A stretch of DNA of 31,922 nucleotides, from the IMG/VR virus record IMGVR_UViG_3300044971_002070, positions 1 through 31,922 of that record. The stretch is one strand, 5' to 3'. The notes beneath the pieces are model-generated. The model was given only the letters and a program-made list of their open reading frames with translations, had not been told where the DNA came from and searched no databases. Both the position numbers and the translations under genes were made by a program. This document shows, in pieces, positions 25,394 to 31,741 of this stretch (within the stretch, counting starts at the first letter, position 1; each line of letters begins with the position of its first letter). Origin of the DNA: a virus.

Positions 25394-25470
25394 TGAAGTA
25401 TTTAATTGCTTATTTAATAACCGTTTCAATAATTTTAGTATGGAACCACGCGAGGTGTAAGGATGGCTAA
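25393..25470 (+). CDS. Possible membrane peptide, 25 aa
   Basis: MKYLIAYLITVSIILVWNHA then RCKDG. Its ATG overlaps the stop before it (TAATG) and its end overlaps the next start. One hydrophobic helix. It may be a real coupling peptide or chance; no ribosome site beyond the coupling. Confidence 0.35.
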   Translation: MKYLIAYLITVSIILVWNHARCKDG

Positions 25471-26338
25471 TCCATCACGCAGGGGGCAAGTTGCGGGACC
25501 TGTATCAGGTCAAATGCGCGGTGATGAAGAAACACCTTTTGCTAATACTTCAATGATTTTGCCTTACGGCTTGCAACTGCAACAGACAATTCTTGCAGGT
25601 ACAACTTCGGTAACTATTCCTGCTGGTATTACATTTGTTTACGCTATCGCAGTTGGTGGTGGTGGTGTCGGTGGAGCAGGCGGTGTAGCGTGGGGCTGGA
25701 CAATAGCAACCTCATCTTGCATTGTCGGTGCAGGTGGCGCTGGTGCTAGCGGTTATACCCGTTACGGAAATGTTATTGCTGGCGGTGGTGGTGTTGGTAA
25801 CAACGCCTTTCTTGGTGGTGGAGCAAGTCCACCCTTTACTGGTTCAACAAATTATTATGGAATCCCTGCTGGCACTGCTGGTGCTGCTGGTATAAAAGGT
25901 AACAATGGTGCAGGTGCTGGCAGTGGTGGGCAAAGCACAACCAACGGAGTTGCTAGTGGTGCAGGCGGTGATGGCATTTCAGCAGGCGGTGGCGGTAGCA
26001 GTAGCGGTGCAGGAGCAGCAACTAATACTGGTGGCAACGGCGGCAACGGTTTAGTTGGTGGTGGTGGTGGTAGAGCGCAAGGCTCAACAACACTAAATGT
26101 TGGTGGTAATGGCGGTAATGGAATAAACATTTTAACTGGCGCAGTTACAACTGGCGGTACGGGAACAACTGGCGGTTCAGGTGGAACTGGCGCTGGCGGT
26201 GGTGGTGGTGGTGTTGCAGGTAATGGCAGTAATGCTTCAAGCGTAACTGGCGGTGCAGGTGGACTGGGCGGTGGTGCTGCTGGTGTTGGTGCGTTTAACG
26301 GCGCAGGCGGCAACGGAATACTTTACCTTTTTTACTAG
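25463..26338 (+). CDS. Glycine-rich tail adhesin, copy 1, 291 aa
   Basis: A short N-terminal region (NPSRRGQVAGPVSGQM) and a beta-like LQQTILAGTTSVTIPAGITF segment are followed by about 200 residues of Gly-rich repeats (GGGG, GGNGGNG, GAGG) and a terminus GGNGILYLFY. Such sequences form polyglycine-II bundles in phage fibre adhesins (compare the gp38 adhesin of T4-like phages), with the receptor loops between. It is followed by two paralogues. ATG 25463 has AAGG upstream (GTGTAAGG). Confidence 0.7.
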   Translation: MANPSRRGQVAGPVSGQMRGDEETPFANTSMILPYGLQLQQTILAGTTSVTIPAGITFVYAIAVGGGGVGGAGGVAWGWTIATSSCIVGAGGAGASGYTRYGNVIAGGGGVGNNAFLGGGASPPFTGSTNYYGIPAGTAGAAGIKGNNGAGAGSGGQSTTNGVASGAGGDGISAGGGGSSSGAGAATNTGGNGGNGLVGGGGGRAQGSTTLNVGGNGGNGINILTGAVTTGGTGTTGGSGGTGAGGGGGGVAGNGSNASSVTGGAGGLGGGAAGVGAFNGAGGNGILYLFY

Positions 26339-26347
26339 GAGAACACT

Positions 26348-27262
26348 ATGAGCAATCCAAACCGCAAAGGACAAGCTGGCAACCCAGTATCTATTGGGAT
26401 GCAAAGTGCTACATATACTCCATTTGTAAACACACATTTTAATCTGCCATTCGGATTATATTTACGCCAAACAATTTTGGCAGGAACTACATCAGTGACA
26501 ATCCCTGCGGGAATTAATTTTGTATTTGCTATAGCAGTTGGTGGTGGGGGTGGTGGGTCAGGTAACGGTGCAGGCGGTGCAGGTGGTGTTGCTTGGGGTT
26601 GGACACTAGCAACTTCAAGTTGCGTAGTCGGCACAGGTGGTGCAAGTAGTGTTAATGGTAATTACACGCGTTATGGAAATGTAATCGCAGGCGGTGGTGG
26701 GTCACATCTTAATAATGGGAGACTTGGCGGTGGTGGTGGTGGTGGTACTAATGGAACCGCATCAGGCGCGGGGGAAACAAATTATTGGGGCATACCTGGT
26801 GGTGGAACAAGATTTCAAGTAAACATCAAAGGTAATAATGGTAGTGGTGCTGGCGGTGGCGCACCAGATGCAATATCGGATGCAAGCGCAGGTGGAGATG
26901 GAATTTCTGGTGGCGGTGGTGGTTCGCAATTTACTGCAGGAACTCAAACCAACACTGGTGGTGGCGGTGGTAGCGGTTTAGTAGGTGGCGGTGGTGGTCG
27001 TGCTTCTGGAACAACAGGAACTCGTATAGGCGGTAATGGTGGTAACGGAATCAACATCCTTACTGGTCAAATAACAACAGGTGGTACTGGTACTACTGGA
27101 ACTGCAACAAACGGCGCAGGTGGTGGTGGTGGTGGAGTTGCTGGCAACGGCGGTAACGCTTCAGGTGGTTCAGGTGGTACTGGTGGTCTTGGTGGTGGCG
27201 CAGGTGGCGGTGGTGGTACATCTAACGCAGGCGGCAACGGAATTCTTTATCTTTTTTATTAA
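26348..27262 (+). CDS. Glycine-rich tail adhesin, copy 2, 304 aa
   Basis: Same architecture as copy 1: NPNRKGQAGNPVSIGM, LRQTILAGTTSVTIPAGINF, AVGGGGGGSGNG, an aromatic island YWGIPGGG, and the shared terminus AGGNGILYLFY. The variable loops differ from copy 1, the pattern expected of receptor-binding diversification. The ATG is 9 nt after the stop of copy 1, with AGGAG before it. Confidence 0.7.
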   Translation: MSNPNRKGQAGNPVSIGMQSATYTPFVNTHFNLPFGLYLRQTILAGTTSVTIPAGINFVFAIAVGGGGGGSGNGAGGAGGVAWGWTLATSSCVVGTGGASSVNGNYTRYGNVIAGGGGSHLNNGRLGGGGGGGTNGTASGAGETNYWGIPGGGTRFQVNIKGNNGSGAGGGAPDAISDASAGGDGISGGGGGSQFTAGTQTNTGGGGGSGLVGGGGGRASGTTGTRIGGNGGNGINILTGQITTGGTGTTGTATNGAGGGGGGVAGNGGNASGGSGGTGGLGGGAGGGGGTSNAGGNGILYLFY

Positions 27263-27276
27263 AAAAAACTATATGA

Positions 27277-27282
27277 TACAAT
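27277..27282 (+). promoter_or_regulatory. Extended -10 TGA-TACAAT before adhesin copy 3
   Basis: Nine nt before ATG 27292, with GGAG in between. It could give copy 3 its own expression. Confidence 0.4.
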
Positions 27283-27291
27283 GGAGATATT

Positions 27292-28386
27292 ATGAGCGCA
27301 TCTATTTATAGCAATTCATCATTTACTGATACACCTTATGGACTCAAGTTGCAACAAACTATCTCTGCAACAGGAACAACATCAGTAACAATCCCTGCTG
27401 GAATCAATAGAGTCTATGCAATCGTTATTGGTGGTGGTGGTAGCGGTTCATCATCAAGAGCGCAATCAACGGCAACGGTAACGGCTGCGACAGGTAACGG
27501 AACAACAATTACTTACACCGCAAACAATTCATTTCTAGCAGGTGAATTTGTAAACGTTTCAGGGCTTGGCGTTGCATCAGGTTCGGTTCTTAACGTAACT
27601 GGAGCCCCCATTGCCTCTGCAAACGCAACTCAATTTACAATCACCAATGGTACGGTAGGAGTTTCATCTGGAACTGGAACCGCAACAAATGGTGGTTCTA
27701 AAGCAGGTGGTGGTGCTGGTGGCTACTCTGCAGGTTGGACTTGGGCAACAAATACCGTAACCGTTGGAACTGGTGGTGCAGGAGTTTCTGGTTTTACTGC
27801 AGGTAATCGCGGCGGTAATTCTATTTACGGAATGGTTATGGCAGGCGGTGGTAGAGGCGGTTTTACTAACGGGCAATCTGGAGCATCAGTGGGGGCAACA
27901 GGACTTAACTCAAATAGCAGTACCTCAACGGTTTCTTATACGGGAGCACCTGCAGCAGGAGCAGGTGTGATTGGTTACGCAAGTGGTGCAGCAAACGCAC
28001 AAAATAGTGGACCTGCTGGCGTTTCAACAGGTGGTGGCAACGGCGGTGGTGGTGGTACATCTTCATCAACTACTGGAAATACTGGAACTTGCGGTAGTGG
28101 TGGTCGTGGTCTTATCTGTGGCGGTGGTGGTAGTTCAACAACTACAGGACTTGCAACTGGCGGTAATGGTGGCACAGGAGATTTCTATGCAGGCGGCACA
28201 GGTACATCTGGCACGGGAACAGGTTTTGGCGCAGGCGGTGGCGGTGCAGGTCTTGCTGGCGCAGGTGCTAACGCTTCTGGAAACAATGGCGGTAATGGTG
28301 GTGCTGGTGGCGGTGGTGGTGGTAGTTCTTCCCACGATGGCACATCAGGTTCAGGCGGTAACGGAATTGTTTATCTTTACTACTAA
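27292..28386 (+). CDS. Glycine-rich tail adhesin, copy 3, with an inserted beta domain, 364 aa
   Basis: Starts like its paralogues (LKLQQTISATGTTSVTIPAG) and ends GNGIVYLYY, but residues about 58-132 are a non-glycine, Thr/Val/Asn-rich insertion (TVTAATGNGTTITYTANNSF, GEFVNVSGLGVASGSVL, TQFTITNGTVG). Insertions of this type occur in phage tail-fibre proteins as separate beta modules, so copy 3 looks like a domain-shuffled adhesin. Its Gly-rich part is longer than in copies 1 and 2. Confidence 0.7.
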   Translation: MSASIYSNSSFTDTPYGLKLQQTISATGTTSVTIPAGINRVYAIVIGGGGSGSSSRAQSTATVTAATGNGTTITYTANNSFLAGEFVNVSGLGVASGSVLNVTGAPIASANATQFTITNGTVGVSSGTGTATNGGSKAGGGAGGYSAGWTWATNTVTVGTGGAGVSGFTAGNRGGNSIYGMVMAGGGRGGFTNGQSGASVGATGLNSNSSTSTVSYTGAPAAGAGVIGYASGAANAQNSGPAGVSTGGGNGGGGGTSSSTTGNTGTCGSGGRGLICGGGGSSTTTGLATGGNGGTGDFYAGGTGTSGTGTGFGAGGGGAGLAGAGANASGNNGGNGGAGGGGGGSSSHDGTSGSGGNGIVYLYY

Positions 28387-28755: not shown

Positions 28756-29454
28756 TTAAATGCTTGCGCCTTTGTCTATATTACATCTTCCATGTGCTGG
28801 CCTAACATTTTCTAAAGTATCTGGACCACCCTTAGATATAGGAATCAAGTGATCAATATGGAGTCCCTTTTCCCATCCTGTTTTTCCAACTTGGCGGGGT
28901 AGGGATAAATCAATCTCTAATCCACAGATATGACAGTTAACCCCATAAGTAGATATAACATTTTTTTCTGTATATGGGGAGGTAGGAGAGCCTTTTATAA
29001 TAGCCCTACGCTTTCTACCTGCTCTTAGCTTAGCTTCACGATGTATATCTGGGTTGTTCTTTGCCCATTCTCTTACTCTTTGGCGATTACGCTCAGCATT
29101 CTTTTTGTGATATTCTCTGCTCTTTTGCCTGTATGTTTCCCTATTGTTTTGATACTCAATGGCTTTTCTTTTCTTGATCTCTTCACGATATTTCTCAGCA
29201 TAAATACGACTGCGTTCTTTAATAATGTCTTTGTTCTTTTGGCGATATGCTTTTTTCTTTTTCTTAATATCAGCATCATTGACCATACGCCATTTCTTTG
29301 AGTATTCACGCATATAGTCAGCATTGGCTTTTCTACGTTCAGCCAGGCAAGGCTTACATCTAGCATTAAGCTTACCTTTAGACTTACTCTCCCAGCAAAA
29401 GAATTCACTTGTAGCAGGAAAGATTTGCTTACATTGAGTGCATGCTTTAGTCAT
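28756..29454 (-). CDS. HNH endonuclease with an N-terminal zinc module, 232 aa
   Basis: The N-terminus has CTQCKQIFPAT and RCKPCLAERR (two CxxC), the middle is a long basic helix/coiled coil (KKKAYRQKNKDIIKERSRIY and similar repeats), and the C-terminus carries the HNH site: CHICGLEIDL, LHIDHLIPISKGGPDTLENV, AHGRCNIDKGA. Such enzymes are homing-type or phage-packaging nucleases. ATG 29454, exactly 6 nt from the -10, is preferred to TTG 29457. Confidence 0.88.
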   Translation of the reverse strand: MTKACTQCKQIFPATSEFFCWESKSKGKLNARCKPCLAERRKANADYMREYSKKWRMVNDADIKKKKKAYRQKNKDIIKERSRIYAEKYREEIKKRKAIEYQNNRETYRQKSREYHKKNAERNRQRVREWAKNNPDIHREAKLRAGRKRRAIIKGSPTSPYTEKNVISTYGVNCHICGLEIDLSLPRQVGKTGWEKGLHIDHLIPISKGGPDTLENVRPAHGRCNIDKGASI

Positions 29455-29460
29455 CAAACC

Positions 29461-29489
29461 ATTATCTCAAATTTTGCGGGGGAAGTCAA
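29461..29489 (-). promoter_or_regulatory. Promoter TTGACT-17-GATAAT, leaderless, for the HNH gene
   Basis: -35 at 29489-29484, -10 at 29466-29461, 6 nt to ATG 29454. The spacer contains CCCCCGCAAAATT, shared with other sites in the window. Confidence 0.65.
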
Positions 29490-29513
29490 GAAAGGATCGT
29501 AATCCCTATTATA

Positions 29514-29953: not shown

Positions 29954-30456
29954 GTATCTGGCGTTTGGTTTTAGGGCCTGTATATAGGGTTTAAAGGCTT
30001 ATTTGATACTATATGTAGTGGTTTGATAGGAAAATAAATCTTACTGATATTTTTTAGATTTACCTTTCGTGGAGGAAAGTGGAGAGAAGTGGAGTATTGG
30101 GCCCTTAGACAGATGGCGTCGTAATGTCCAAACCTTAAAAACCTCCTATCACAAACCTTTCCTTTTGTCAAACCTCACCTTTTGGCCTGCATTATATACC
30201 CAAACCTTGCTTTTGTCAAACCTTTATAGCTTAAAAACCCCTATAAAAACCTAGACAAAATGCTCCAATTTGTCCAGAAAATATATAGAAAGGTTTGTAA
30301 AATATCTAAAAACCAGGAGAAAAGGTTTGATATCGTAATGTTTTATATAGGGAGGTTTGGAGTAGGGGTTTGTCTATATCCCCCGCAAAATTCGGGGACG
30401 CTAAAGCGTTGATCGTAATGTCTGACAGGATTATTTAACACGTTATGTCGGGGGAA
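29954..30456. repeat. Non-coding region with AGGTTTGA and TCGTAATG repeats (left part)
   Basis: No supported gene in about 500 nt. It is packed with GGTTTG/CAAACC elements in both orientations, including a 13-nt direct repeat TTTTGTCAAACCT at 30163-30175 and 30211-30223, and TCGTAATG at 30119, 30333 and 30413. CCCCG/CGGGG (30381-30397) and ACGCTAAAGCGT (30398-30409) are adjacent small palindromes. A consensus reverse promoter lies at 30219-30191. Candidate roles are replication origin, phage regulator binding region or RNA gene; none is proven. Confidence 0.6.
30191..30219 (-). promoter_or_regulatory. Perfect-consensus promoter inside the repeat region, reverse strand
   Basis: TTGACA (30219-30214), 17-nt spacer, TATAAT (30196-30191). 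It fires toward 29954 where no reverse gene begins until 29654, so its product may be a non-coding RNA or antisense RNA. Confidence 0.65.
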
Positions 30457-30627
30457 TTAAAGAAGATAAAGAAAAGTACCTATAGCAGCTAAGGTAATAA
30501 CAAACCCTGATATAACTAAATAGAAGAAACCTTTATCTGGTATATCATAAGGTTTGTCAGCATGTCTACTAACTCCATCATTAATGAAGTAAGGTCCTCC
30601 ATGCTTTGAAAAATAGTTTCTTCCCAT
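30457..30627 (-). CDS. Membrane microprotein, 56 aa
   Basis: A polar N-terminal half (MGRNYFSKHGGPYFINDGVS, then HADKPYDIPDKG) and one C-terminal membrane helix FFYLVISGFVITLAAIGTFL. It sits alone within the repeat-rich region. The ATG is 6 nt after TGT-TATAAT (30639-30634), which supports it as a gene. Function unknown. Confidence 0.6.
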   Translation of the reverse strand: MGRNYFSKHGGPYFINDGVSRHADKPYDIPDKGFFYLVISGFVITLAAIGTFLYLL

Positions 30628-30633
30628 ATAAAT

Positions 30634-30639
30634 ATTATA
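30634..30639 (-). promoter_or_regulatory. Extended -10 TGT-TATAAT, leaderless
   Basis: Six nt before ATG 30627, divergent from the forward promoter at 30655. Confidence 0.6.
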
Positions 30640-30654
30640 ACATGGTTTTAAGGT

Positions 30655-30683
30655 TTGACAGATAAGGTTTGATATGCTAGAAT
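30655..30683 (+). promoter_or_regulatory. Promoter TTGACA-17-TAGAAT firing into the repeat array
   Basis: TTGACA 30655-30660, TGC-TAGAAT with -10 at 30678-30683. The transcript would start near 30690 and run through three TCGTAATG units to the hairpin and T-run ending at 30834. No open frame follows, so a small RNA of about 145 nt is possible. Confidence 0.6.
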
Positions 30684-30801
30684 ATGAGGTTTTTTTTGAG
30701 CTCTCGTAATGTCTAGAATAGGAGAAAAAATTTGGTGTCTCGTAATGTCTGAAAATGGGAAAAATTTGGACATATCGTAATAAGGTTTGATAGAATGGTT
30801 T

Positions 30802-30834
30802 GGGGCCCGAGCCCCCGCAGGGGCAGAGCTTTTT
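30802..30834 (+). terminator. GC-rich alternative hairpins followed by a T-run
   Basis: GGGGC (30802-30806), GCCCC (30811-30815) and GGGGC (30820-30824) can form either of two mutually exclusive 5-bp hairpins; the second is followed by AGAGC and TTTTT (30830-30834). The layout could be a terminator with an alternative fold. The reverse gene at 30833 ends here too. Confidence 0.5.
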
Positions 30835-31087
30835 AGATTTTTACAATATCACTTAAGGATGTAAACCCAACATCCTCAACATCTAAAAGCTCTAATAGAT
30901 CAGCGAATGTTACATCTATAATTTCTATTGCAAGAGGAGTTGCTTCTACTATACCGTTGGAAATAAAATATGCCATAGGCAAACCCAAATCGTTTATCTC
31001 AATGAAATCCTCAAGCCATTCATTCTCAGAATGGTTGATCCAGATATCATTTAAGATATCACATTTGCTAGCGAGTTCTGTAGTCAT
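30833..31087 (-). CDS. Acidic phage protein, paralogue of the gene at 11057, 84 aa
   Basis: CDILNDIWINHSENEWLEDF, then IEINDLGLPMAYFISNGIVE aligns with the 11057 gene along its length (CxIL, DFIExND(I/L)GLPxAxF, VExTxLA). Soluble and acidic. It overlaps the upstream reverse gene by 20 nt, so it is expressed with it. Function unknown. Confidence 0.65.
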   Translation of the reverse strand: MTTELASKCDILNDIWINHSENEWLEDFIEINDLGLPMAYFISNGIVEATPLAIEIIDVTFADLLELLDVEDVGFTSLSDIVKI

Positions 31088-31271
31088 GATATTGATCTTC
31101 CTTCTCTGCTTCTGCTGAATCTGCGAGTGTGATTAAGCGATTGTAAATTACATTAGGTGATAGGCGTACCAAATAAATACCAACCATGTCAAGGTCAAGG
31201 CGCAGGTCTGCAAGTATATTGGTTAATTGGATTGCTACCTTTTCTTCCTTCGTGACTAGTTTTTTTCTCAT
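31068..31271 (-). CDS. Hypothetical helical protein, 67 aa
   Basis: MRKKLVTKEEKVAIQLTNIL, ADLRLDLDMVGIYLVRLSPN and VIYNRLITLADSAEAEKE. I recall similar small proteins (DLD.VG.YL.R..P...YNRL...AE.AE.EKE) as very common in actinobacteriophages, without a role. Preceded by AAGGAGAACC and a TGA-TACAAT promoter (31293-31288). Confidence 0.65.
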   Translation of the reverse strand: MRKKLVTKEEKVAIQLTNILADLRLDLDMVGIYLVRLSPNVIYNRLITLADSAEAEKEDQYHDYRTR

Positions 31272-31287
31272 GGTTCTCCTTATCTAC

Positions 31288-31293
31288 ATTGTA
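31288..31293 (-). promoter_or_regulatory. Extended -10 TGA-TACAAT
   Basis: TTTGATACAATG is repeated at 31917-31912 before the other reverse gene pair, so it is probably a promoter type of this phage. The leader here holds AAGGAG. Confidence 0.5.
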
Positions 31294-31295
31294 TC

Positions 31296-31340
31296 AAAAA
31301 GAGGAGAGGGGCGCAACCCACCACAAATTGCGCCGCCTCT
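31296..31340 (-). terminator. Likely terminator of the reverse gene pair
   Basis: GGCGCAA/TTGCGCC (31310-31316 with 31328-31334) extended by AGAGG/CCTCT with one bulged G, an 11-nt loop, and on the reverse strand a TTTTT just past the stem (31300-31296). Confidence 0.6.
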
Positions 31341-31354
31341 AGTGTAGGGTGTAT

Positions 31355-31741
31355 TTATACCCCTACGTGCTCAGTCAAATTTACTGGATGATAGGCTTCA
31401 ATGAACAATTGCCAGTCAAGAACATTGCCCACATTATCAATGATAGTTTCTTTAGCGATGTCAATCACTACAGTAGTGTCTCCTAGGTCCTCATTGATAT
31501 TATTAATAGCATAGATACCAAAACCTGTATCACTGAATACAGAGTCTTGAATAAGATAACTAATCATCATACGGGTAAAGTAACTAGCGTCACTCCACCT
31601 AGGCTTTGCATGTAGCAGCGCCATTGCTATGTCCCGTTGCCATTCTGTCTCACCCCAGTGGCTATACAAGACCACATGGGAATAGGGCTCACCTACTGCA
31701 GCCTCTACATCTTTAAATATATAGTTAATCCGTGCTCCCAT
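31355..31741 (-). CDS. Conserved actinobacteriophage protein, 128 aa
   Basis: MGARINYIFKDVEAAVGEPY, HVVLYSHWGETEWQRDIAMAL, DASYFTRMMISYLIQDSVF and TGFGIYAIN. The YSHWGETEW and YxTRMxISYLI motifs match a family I have seen in many actinobacteriophages, with unknown role. Its ATG overlaps the stop of the upstream gene (TAATG). Confidence 0.7.
   Translation of the reverse strand: MGARINYIFKDVEAAVGEPYSHVVLYSHWGETEWQRDIAMALLHAKPRWSDASYFTRMMISYLIQDSVFSDTGFGIYAINNINEDLGDTTVVIDIAKETIIDNVGNVLDWQLFIEAYHPVNLTEHVGV

Follow-up and report, generated by a model that had tools for sequence, protein, structure and literature searches.

A repeat-rich region conserved among phages is a probable replication origin related to the BUS of bacterial oriC

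Results

The repeat-rich region and its features

The window, by which we mean the whole stretch of DNA that was analyzed, is a 31.9-kb viral record (31,922 nt) encoding WhiB (Pfam) and tRNAs. Close to its right end, and adjoined on the right by leftward genes at 30833-31741, lies a dense cluster of short repeats and promoters. The cluster and its outlying element hold the following features:

29478-29503, plus strand: outlying TCGTAAT element over the -35 box of the leftward promoter of an HNH gene (29489-29461)
30016-30832, no strand assigned: conserved, mostly non-coding region of ~800 bp, a predicted origin/regulatory region; left edge of homology at 30016-30020 among close relatives; aligned across 52 regions
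30020-30029, plus strand: GGTTTGATAG, where relatives have tandem DnaA boxes (from comparison with relatives)
30038-30055, plus strand: AT-rich core ATC TTA CTG ATA TTT TTT, six NTN triplets, predicted unwinding site; register conserved in 43 gene-anchored and at least 120 pattern-found cores
30069-30094, plus strand: three GTGGAG direct repeats, 10 bp from one to the next; a single occurrence of the pattern in each genome
30100-30125, plus strand: TCGTAAT element 1, at the 50-bp distance from the first GTGGAG that most relatives share
30129-30223, minus strand: cluster of CAAACCT half-sites surrounding the leftward promoter, five in number (30129, 30152, 30169, 30201, 30217)
30191-30219, minus strand: perfect sigma-70 promoter TTGACA-17-TATAAT (12/12 matches), leftward into the core
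30291-30789, plus strand: seven AGGTTTG half-sites (30291, 30323, 30353, 30550, 30651, 30665, 30783)
30314-30339, plus strand: TCGTAAT element 2 (G-rich, A/T tract, TCGTAAT)
30394-30419, plus strand: TCGTAAT element 3
30457-30627, minus strand: predicted membrane protein of 56 aa, start kept in relatives, no Pfam match
30634-30661, minus strand: leftward promoter CTGTCA-16-TATAAT serving the gene for the small membrane protein
30655-30683, plus strand: rightward promoter TTGACA-17-TAGAAT, its -35 and its spacer each carrying AGGTTTG; absent in two close relatives
30685-30710, plus strand: TCGTAAT element 4
30721-30746, plus strand: TCGTAAT element 5
30756-30781, plus strand: TCGTAAT element 6 (TCGTAATA)
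30811-30830, plus strand: terminator-like hairpin GCCCCCGCAGGGGC with a T-rich tail; such hairpins are no commoner than in shuffles

An earlier note on this DNA had described positions 29954 to 30832 as non-coding, with six copies of TCGTAATG. Five copies are exact (30119, 30333, 30413, 30704, and 30740), while the site at 30775 reads TCGTAATA; the reported 35-36 nt spacing of the last three was correct (36 and 35 nt). The interval is indeed mostly non-coding, except for the small conserved ORF at 30457-30627 on the minus strand, and a related TCGTAAT placed at 29496 does exist, albeit at 29497. The interval also holds six exact copies of AGGTTTGA or its complement and 12 copies of AGGTTTG (five on the minus strand at 30129-30223 and seven on the plus strand at 30291-30789), and the description of TTGACA as often embedded in the second repeat is true of both strong promoters. 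None of the words reached its observed count in dinucleotide shuffles of the region (0/2000 each; expected counts 0.01-0.18). The most frequent 8-mer has 10 copies, vs a shuffle maximum of 4. Nor are the words spread at random through the genome, as 10 of the 11 window copies of CAAACCTT fall inside the repeat region. A CRISPR, which the note had discounted, is ruled out because the repeats are short, degenerate, and irregular rather than identical with regular unique spacers. No tRNA or Rfam RNA was found within the repeat region. Transcription from the rightward promoter through three TCGTAAT units to the hairpin (30655-30830) would yield an RNA of ~140 nt. TCCCCCGCAAAATT, itself part of a hairpin, and its exact 14-nt complement lie ~900 bp apart at 30379-30392 and 29470-29483.

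The TCGTAAT word has a marked strand preference. Across the whole window it occurs 15 times on the plus strand and never on the minus strand, with some copies lying inside minus-strand genes; the eight copies left of 29450, together with the outlier at 29497, are all on the same strand. This bias is weaker in larger, complete relatives (15:3 to 13:7), and scattered genomic copies lack the extended motif found in the region, in which a G-rich run and an A/T tract are followed by TCGTAAT about two helical turns away. On both grounds a genome-wide polar motif of the chi/KOPS kind is not the favored reading. A stop-start (TAATG) translation signal was rejected for TCGTAATG, since copies also occur in minus-strand genes and in non-coding DNA.

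A conserved core is shared by a group of phages

Three close relatives show 85-89% nucleotide identity to the region, with all alignments starting at 30016-30020. Further relatives were reached through a neighboring 128-aa gene (best 80 of 140 kept), and the 52 distinct aligned regions all have the same order: AATCTTACTGAT, then three GTGGAG repeats at 10-bp steps, then a TCGTAAT element, for which the usual distance to the first GTGGAG is 50 bp. In these regions, CAAACC-oriented sites lie to the left and GGTTTG-oriented sites to the right, and the DNA to the left of the core varies from one relative to another. A scan of a viral collection requiring TTACTGAT, combined with the earlier loci, yielded at least 120 distinct homologous cores, within 1 kb of which further TCGTAAT elements are found on one strand only (383:0). 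The GTGGAG-pair site occurs once per genome in 11/11 genomes. The repeats are thus conserved in related phages, and neither random spread of the words nor lack of conservation, either of which would have spoken against the reading of the earlier note, was seen.

One close relative is 90 kb in size and the others are 105-119 kb. Four of the latter have exact end overlaps of 99-127 bp and are therefore probably complete circular maps. The relatives encode DnaB, DnaG, and RecA (Pfam; three of four replication proteins scanned from one relative, the fourth giving no match) as well as a DnaE-like polymerase (recognized by eye from the sequence). No DnaA C-terminal domain, and hence no phage-encoded DnaA, was found in the nine records searched. 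Similar DNA was absent from 50,697 GenBank phage records, and the core was absent from records with related proteins (DSL-LC01 and three Streptomyces phages). A search of 84,980 bacterial genomes gave two matches, of which one is due to chance and the other is a phage contig that had been binned with a MAG. L273 (CANGYR010000020.1), labeled as a Chitinophagaceae MAG, carries the predicted phage origin core and is thus probably a misbinned phage contig. The lineage consists of roughly 105-119 kb phages of freshwater actinobacteria, with the window virus in a branch that lacks DnaA boxes.

Most relatives carry tandem DnaA boxes and DnaA-trios

The DNA directly left of AATCTTACTGAT contains perfect DnaA boxes (TTATCCACA) in most relatives, two to four in number. 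Among the at least 120 cores listed, 85 have two or more boxes, seven have one, and 28 have none. Of the 85 listed cores with two or more boxes, 84 have a last box that stops 8 bp short of TTACTGAT, and the box-to-box gap is 2-3 bp in 83. Because the scan itself had required TTACTGAT, the check was repeated on a differently chosen set, namely 43 box-bearing cores picked only by the neighboring gene and GTGGAG. TTACTG stands exactly 8 nt after the last box in 43/43 of these, and the run of NTN triplets has a mean of 6.65 vs 3.52 in shuffles (maximum 4.07). NTN on the strand shown is 3'-NAN-5' on the other strand, which is the DnaA-trio pattern, and 5 nt separate the box from the first trio in relatives.

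At bacterial oriC, the basal unwinding system (BUS) consists of DnaA-boxes plus DnaA-trios (boxes #6/#7 in B. subtilis) [PMC6669920, PMC8287927], with boxes ≤3 bp apart, a short spacer (about 4 bp), and at least three NAN trios [PMC8287927]. The box gap, spacer, and trio number in the relatives satisfy these published rules [PMC8287927]: 85 of the at least 120 have tandem TTATCCACA boxes mostly 2-3 bp apart, a 5-nt spacer, and, on the complementary strand, about six NAN trios that keep the register. Unlike its bacterial counterpart, the phage arrangement sits beside three GTGGAG repeats with a promoter firing into it, and the window and 27 other cores listed lack boxes.

It should be noted that TTATCCACA also occurs, singly or in tandem, upstream of early genes +3 to +13 kb (right) of the core in six relatives (G003, G007, G009, G011, G013, and G014), near CRP-like TGTGA-N6-TCACA palindromes. 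Boxes alone are therefore no proof of an origin, and a regulatory or titration role is possible. Host DnaA/CRP control or titration of DnaA by the phage are both possible explanations for the early-gene boxes.

A strong promoter and regulator-type sites accompany the core

The leftward promoter aimed at the core is perfect (TTGACA-17-TATAAT) in 92/111 cores listed and scores ≥11/12 in 104/111, nearly always 146-232 bp to the right of TTACTGAT. By comparison, a perfect promoter was present in 3/2000 random phage pieces of similar length. Since the DNA left of the core is variable, linkage to a single gene does not by itself account for the promoter, and we infer that the core itself is the conserved target of transcription.

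Beyond the region, strong TCGTAAT copies are found upstream of leftward genes. In all six cases inspected (the HNH gene of the window, G007 twice, G008, G012, and G003), the motif extends over the -35 hexamer. Thus, the element is most likely a regulator site, and this role would also account for its one-strand polarity near the predicted origin. An ECF-type promoter (GGGGAAA-N15-CGTAAT) is less likely, as copies elsewhere overlay the -35 of opposite-strand promoters. The GGTTTG half-sites also look like regulator sites: they form palindromes (GGTTTGTCAAACC) at promoters in relatives and contain the -35 TTGACA. Both repeats accordingly occupy promoters in the manner of a phage operator array, with TTGACA lying in GGTTTG sites and a TCGTAAT element over a neighboring -35. 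Cluster A mycobacteriophages such as L5 carry stoperator/operator arrays of asymmetric sites that keep one orientation relative to transcription. The sites described here are similarly asymmetric, repeated, uniformly oriented to transcription, and overlapping a -35 TTGACA, but they differ in sequence and are clustered at one locus.

The window belongs to a branch without DnaA boxes

The window core contains no DnaA box within one mismatch and thus no tandem boxes of the BUS type, and its nearest relatives are also without a DnaA box. It nevertheless keeps six trio triplets (30038-30055, against the minimum of three), the GTGGAG array, the promoter, and the TCGTAAT elements. GGTTTGATAG fills the box position, singly in the window and as a pair 10 bp apart in the nearest relatives. 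One relative (L035) has both, with boxes after GGTTTGATAG; their simple loss would thus be enough to yield the form seen in the window. On a tree of the 128-aa protein, which is short and weakly resolved and does not tell loss from gain, the box state changes at least twice. No convincing marker gene for box loss or for the box-less genomes was found.

Discussion

The earlier note had offered an origin, a partition site, or a regulator-binding array as readings of this region. Comparison with relatives favors an origin that is also dense in regulator-type sites overlapping promoters, and no support was seen for partition. We consider the region to be probably a replication origin of BUS descent that is activated by transcription and has lost its DnaA boxes in the branch of the window. 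The sequence basis for this reading is one conserved core per genome, combining an AT-rich site in trinucleotide register, three GTGGAG repeats spaced by one helical turn, and a strong promoter nearby that points into the core, with tandem perfect DnaA boxes next to the AT-rich site in most relatives. In box-bearing relatives, host DnaA would bind the boxes and extend as a filament onto the trios, thereby opening the duplex, and the phage DnaB helicase, DnaG primase, and Pol III alpha would load at the opened site. Transcription through the core from the leftward promoter could provide transcriptional activation or a primer, while phage proteins bound to GGTTTG/CAAACC half-sites and to TCGTAAT elements over -35 boxes may switch this promoter and neighboring leftward ones. 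The branch of the window, its DnaA boxes gone, would have to open the duplex by transcription, by means of a phage protein docking at GGTTTGATAG or GTGGAG, or through DnaA sites that are very weak. A more specific version, in which the initiator was swapped such that the DnaA-trio melting site was kept, phage-regulator sites (GGTTTGATAG) replaced the boxes, and opening became DnaA-independent with the rest of the origin unchanged, is one we offer only tentatively. Cumulative GC skew shows no turn at the region and follows gene direction, and at fourfold sites the signs of the skew in plus- and minus-strand genes contradict each other; GC skew thus neither supports nor refutes an origin.

Known origins resemble parts of this arrangement. 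At lambda ori, a promoter reading through the origin provides transcriptional activation. The phage region similarly has a promoter that would transcribe through the origin beside an AT-rich site, with repeated putative protein-binding sites; unlike lambda, the predicted origin is not inside an initiator gene, relatives have DnaA boxes, and neither a lambda O nor an iteron Rep was recognized among the four Pfam-scanned replication proteins of one relative. P1 oriR and other iteron plasmid origins combine DnaA boxes, an AT-rich site, and direct repeats usually spaced 20-22 bp apart. The phage group shares DnaA boxes and an AT-rich site beside several direct repeats (six TCGTAAT elements and three GTGGAG repeats in the window), but its repeats also occur at ordinary promoters and do not have the 20-22 bp spacing.

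A rather unlikely alternative is that the region is solely a transcriptional control region, in which TCGTAAT and GGTTTG sites form an array of operators through which one or two phage regulators govern leftward early promoters, and the DnaA boxes of relatives serve regulation or titration with no origin present. The placement of outside TCGTAAT elements over -35 hexamers in the six inspected cases, a polarity that fits leftward promoters, the GGTTTG palindromes at promoters, and the boxes upstream of other early genes would all be expected of such a region. What it leaves unexplained is the invariant register of DnaA box, 8 bp, and trios, the unique GTGGAG array, and the near-perfect promoter, which points at a core that has no constant left flank. 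We give very little credence to a partition or packaging site with the TCGTAAT repeats as its recognition array: direct repeats in one orientation are clustered at one site, but copies are also found on ordinary promoters and the circular assemblies have no fixed end at the region. Degenerate, functionless repeats arising by short-word expansion, as the differing number of 35-36-nt units among relatives might suggest, can practically be dismissed, since motif, orientation, and spacing are kept across at least 120 distinct cores at deep divergence.

If the region is an origin of BUS descent, the oriC opening mechanism of the cell operates, or did so until recently, on the phage genomes of a large group of uncultivated viruses of freshwater actinobacteria. 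Box-bearing and box-less relatives, being otherwise alike, would then offer a ready comparison for studying DnaA-trios without boxes and a change of initiator, and the signature TTACTGAT-N14-26-GTGGAG-N4-GTGGAG would mark the origin of this phage group in metagenomes.

Two observations concern the neighboring genes. An HNH endonuclease gene (28756-29457) adjoins the predicted origin and has its own promoter under a TCGTAAT element; in one relative (G014), an HNH-like gene and a possible GIY-YIG gene, both recognized by eye, occupy the same place. At 25463-28386 there are three adjacent glycine-rich paralogous ORFs with strongly G-skewed repeats, which are probably tail-fiber-like.
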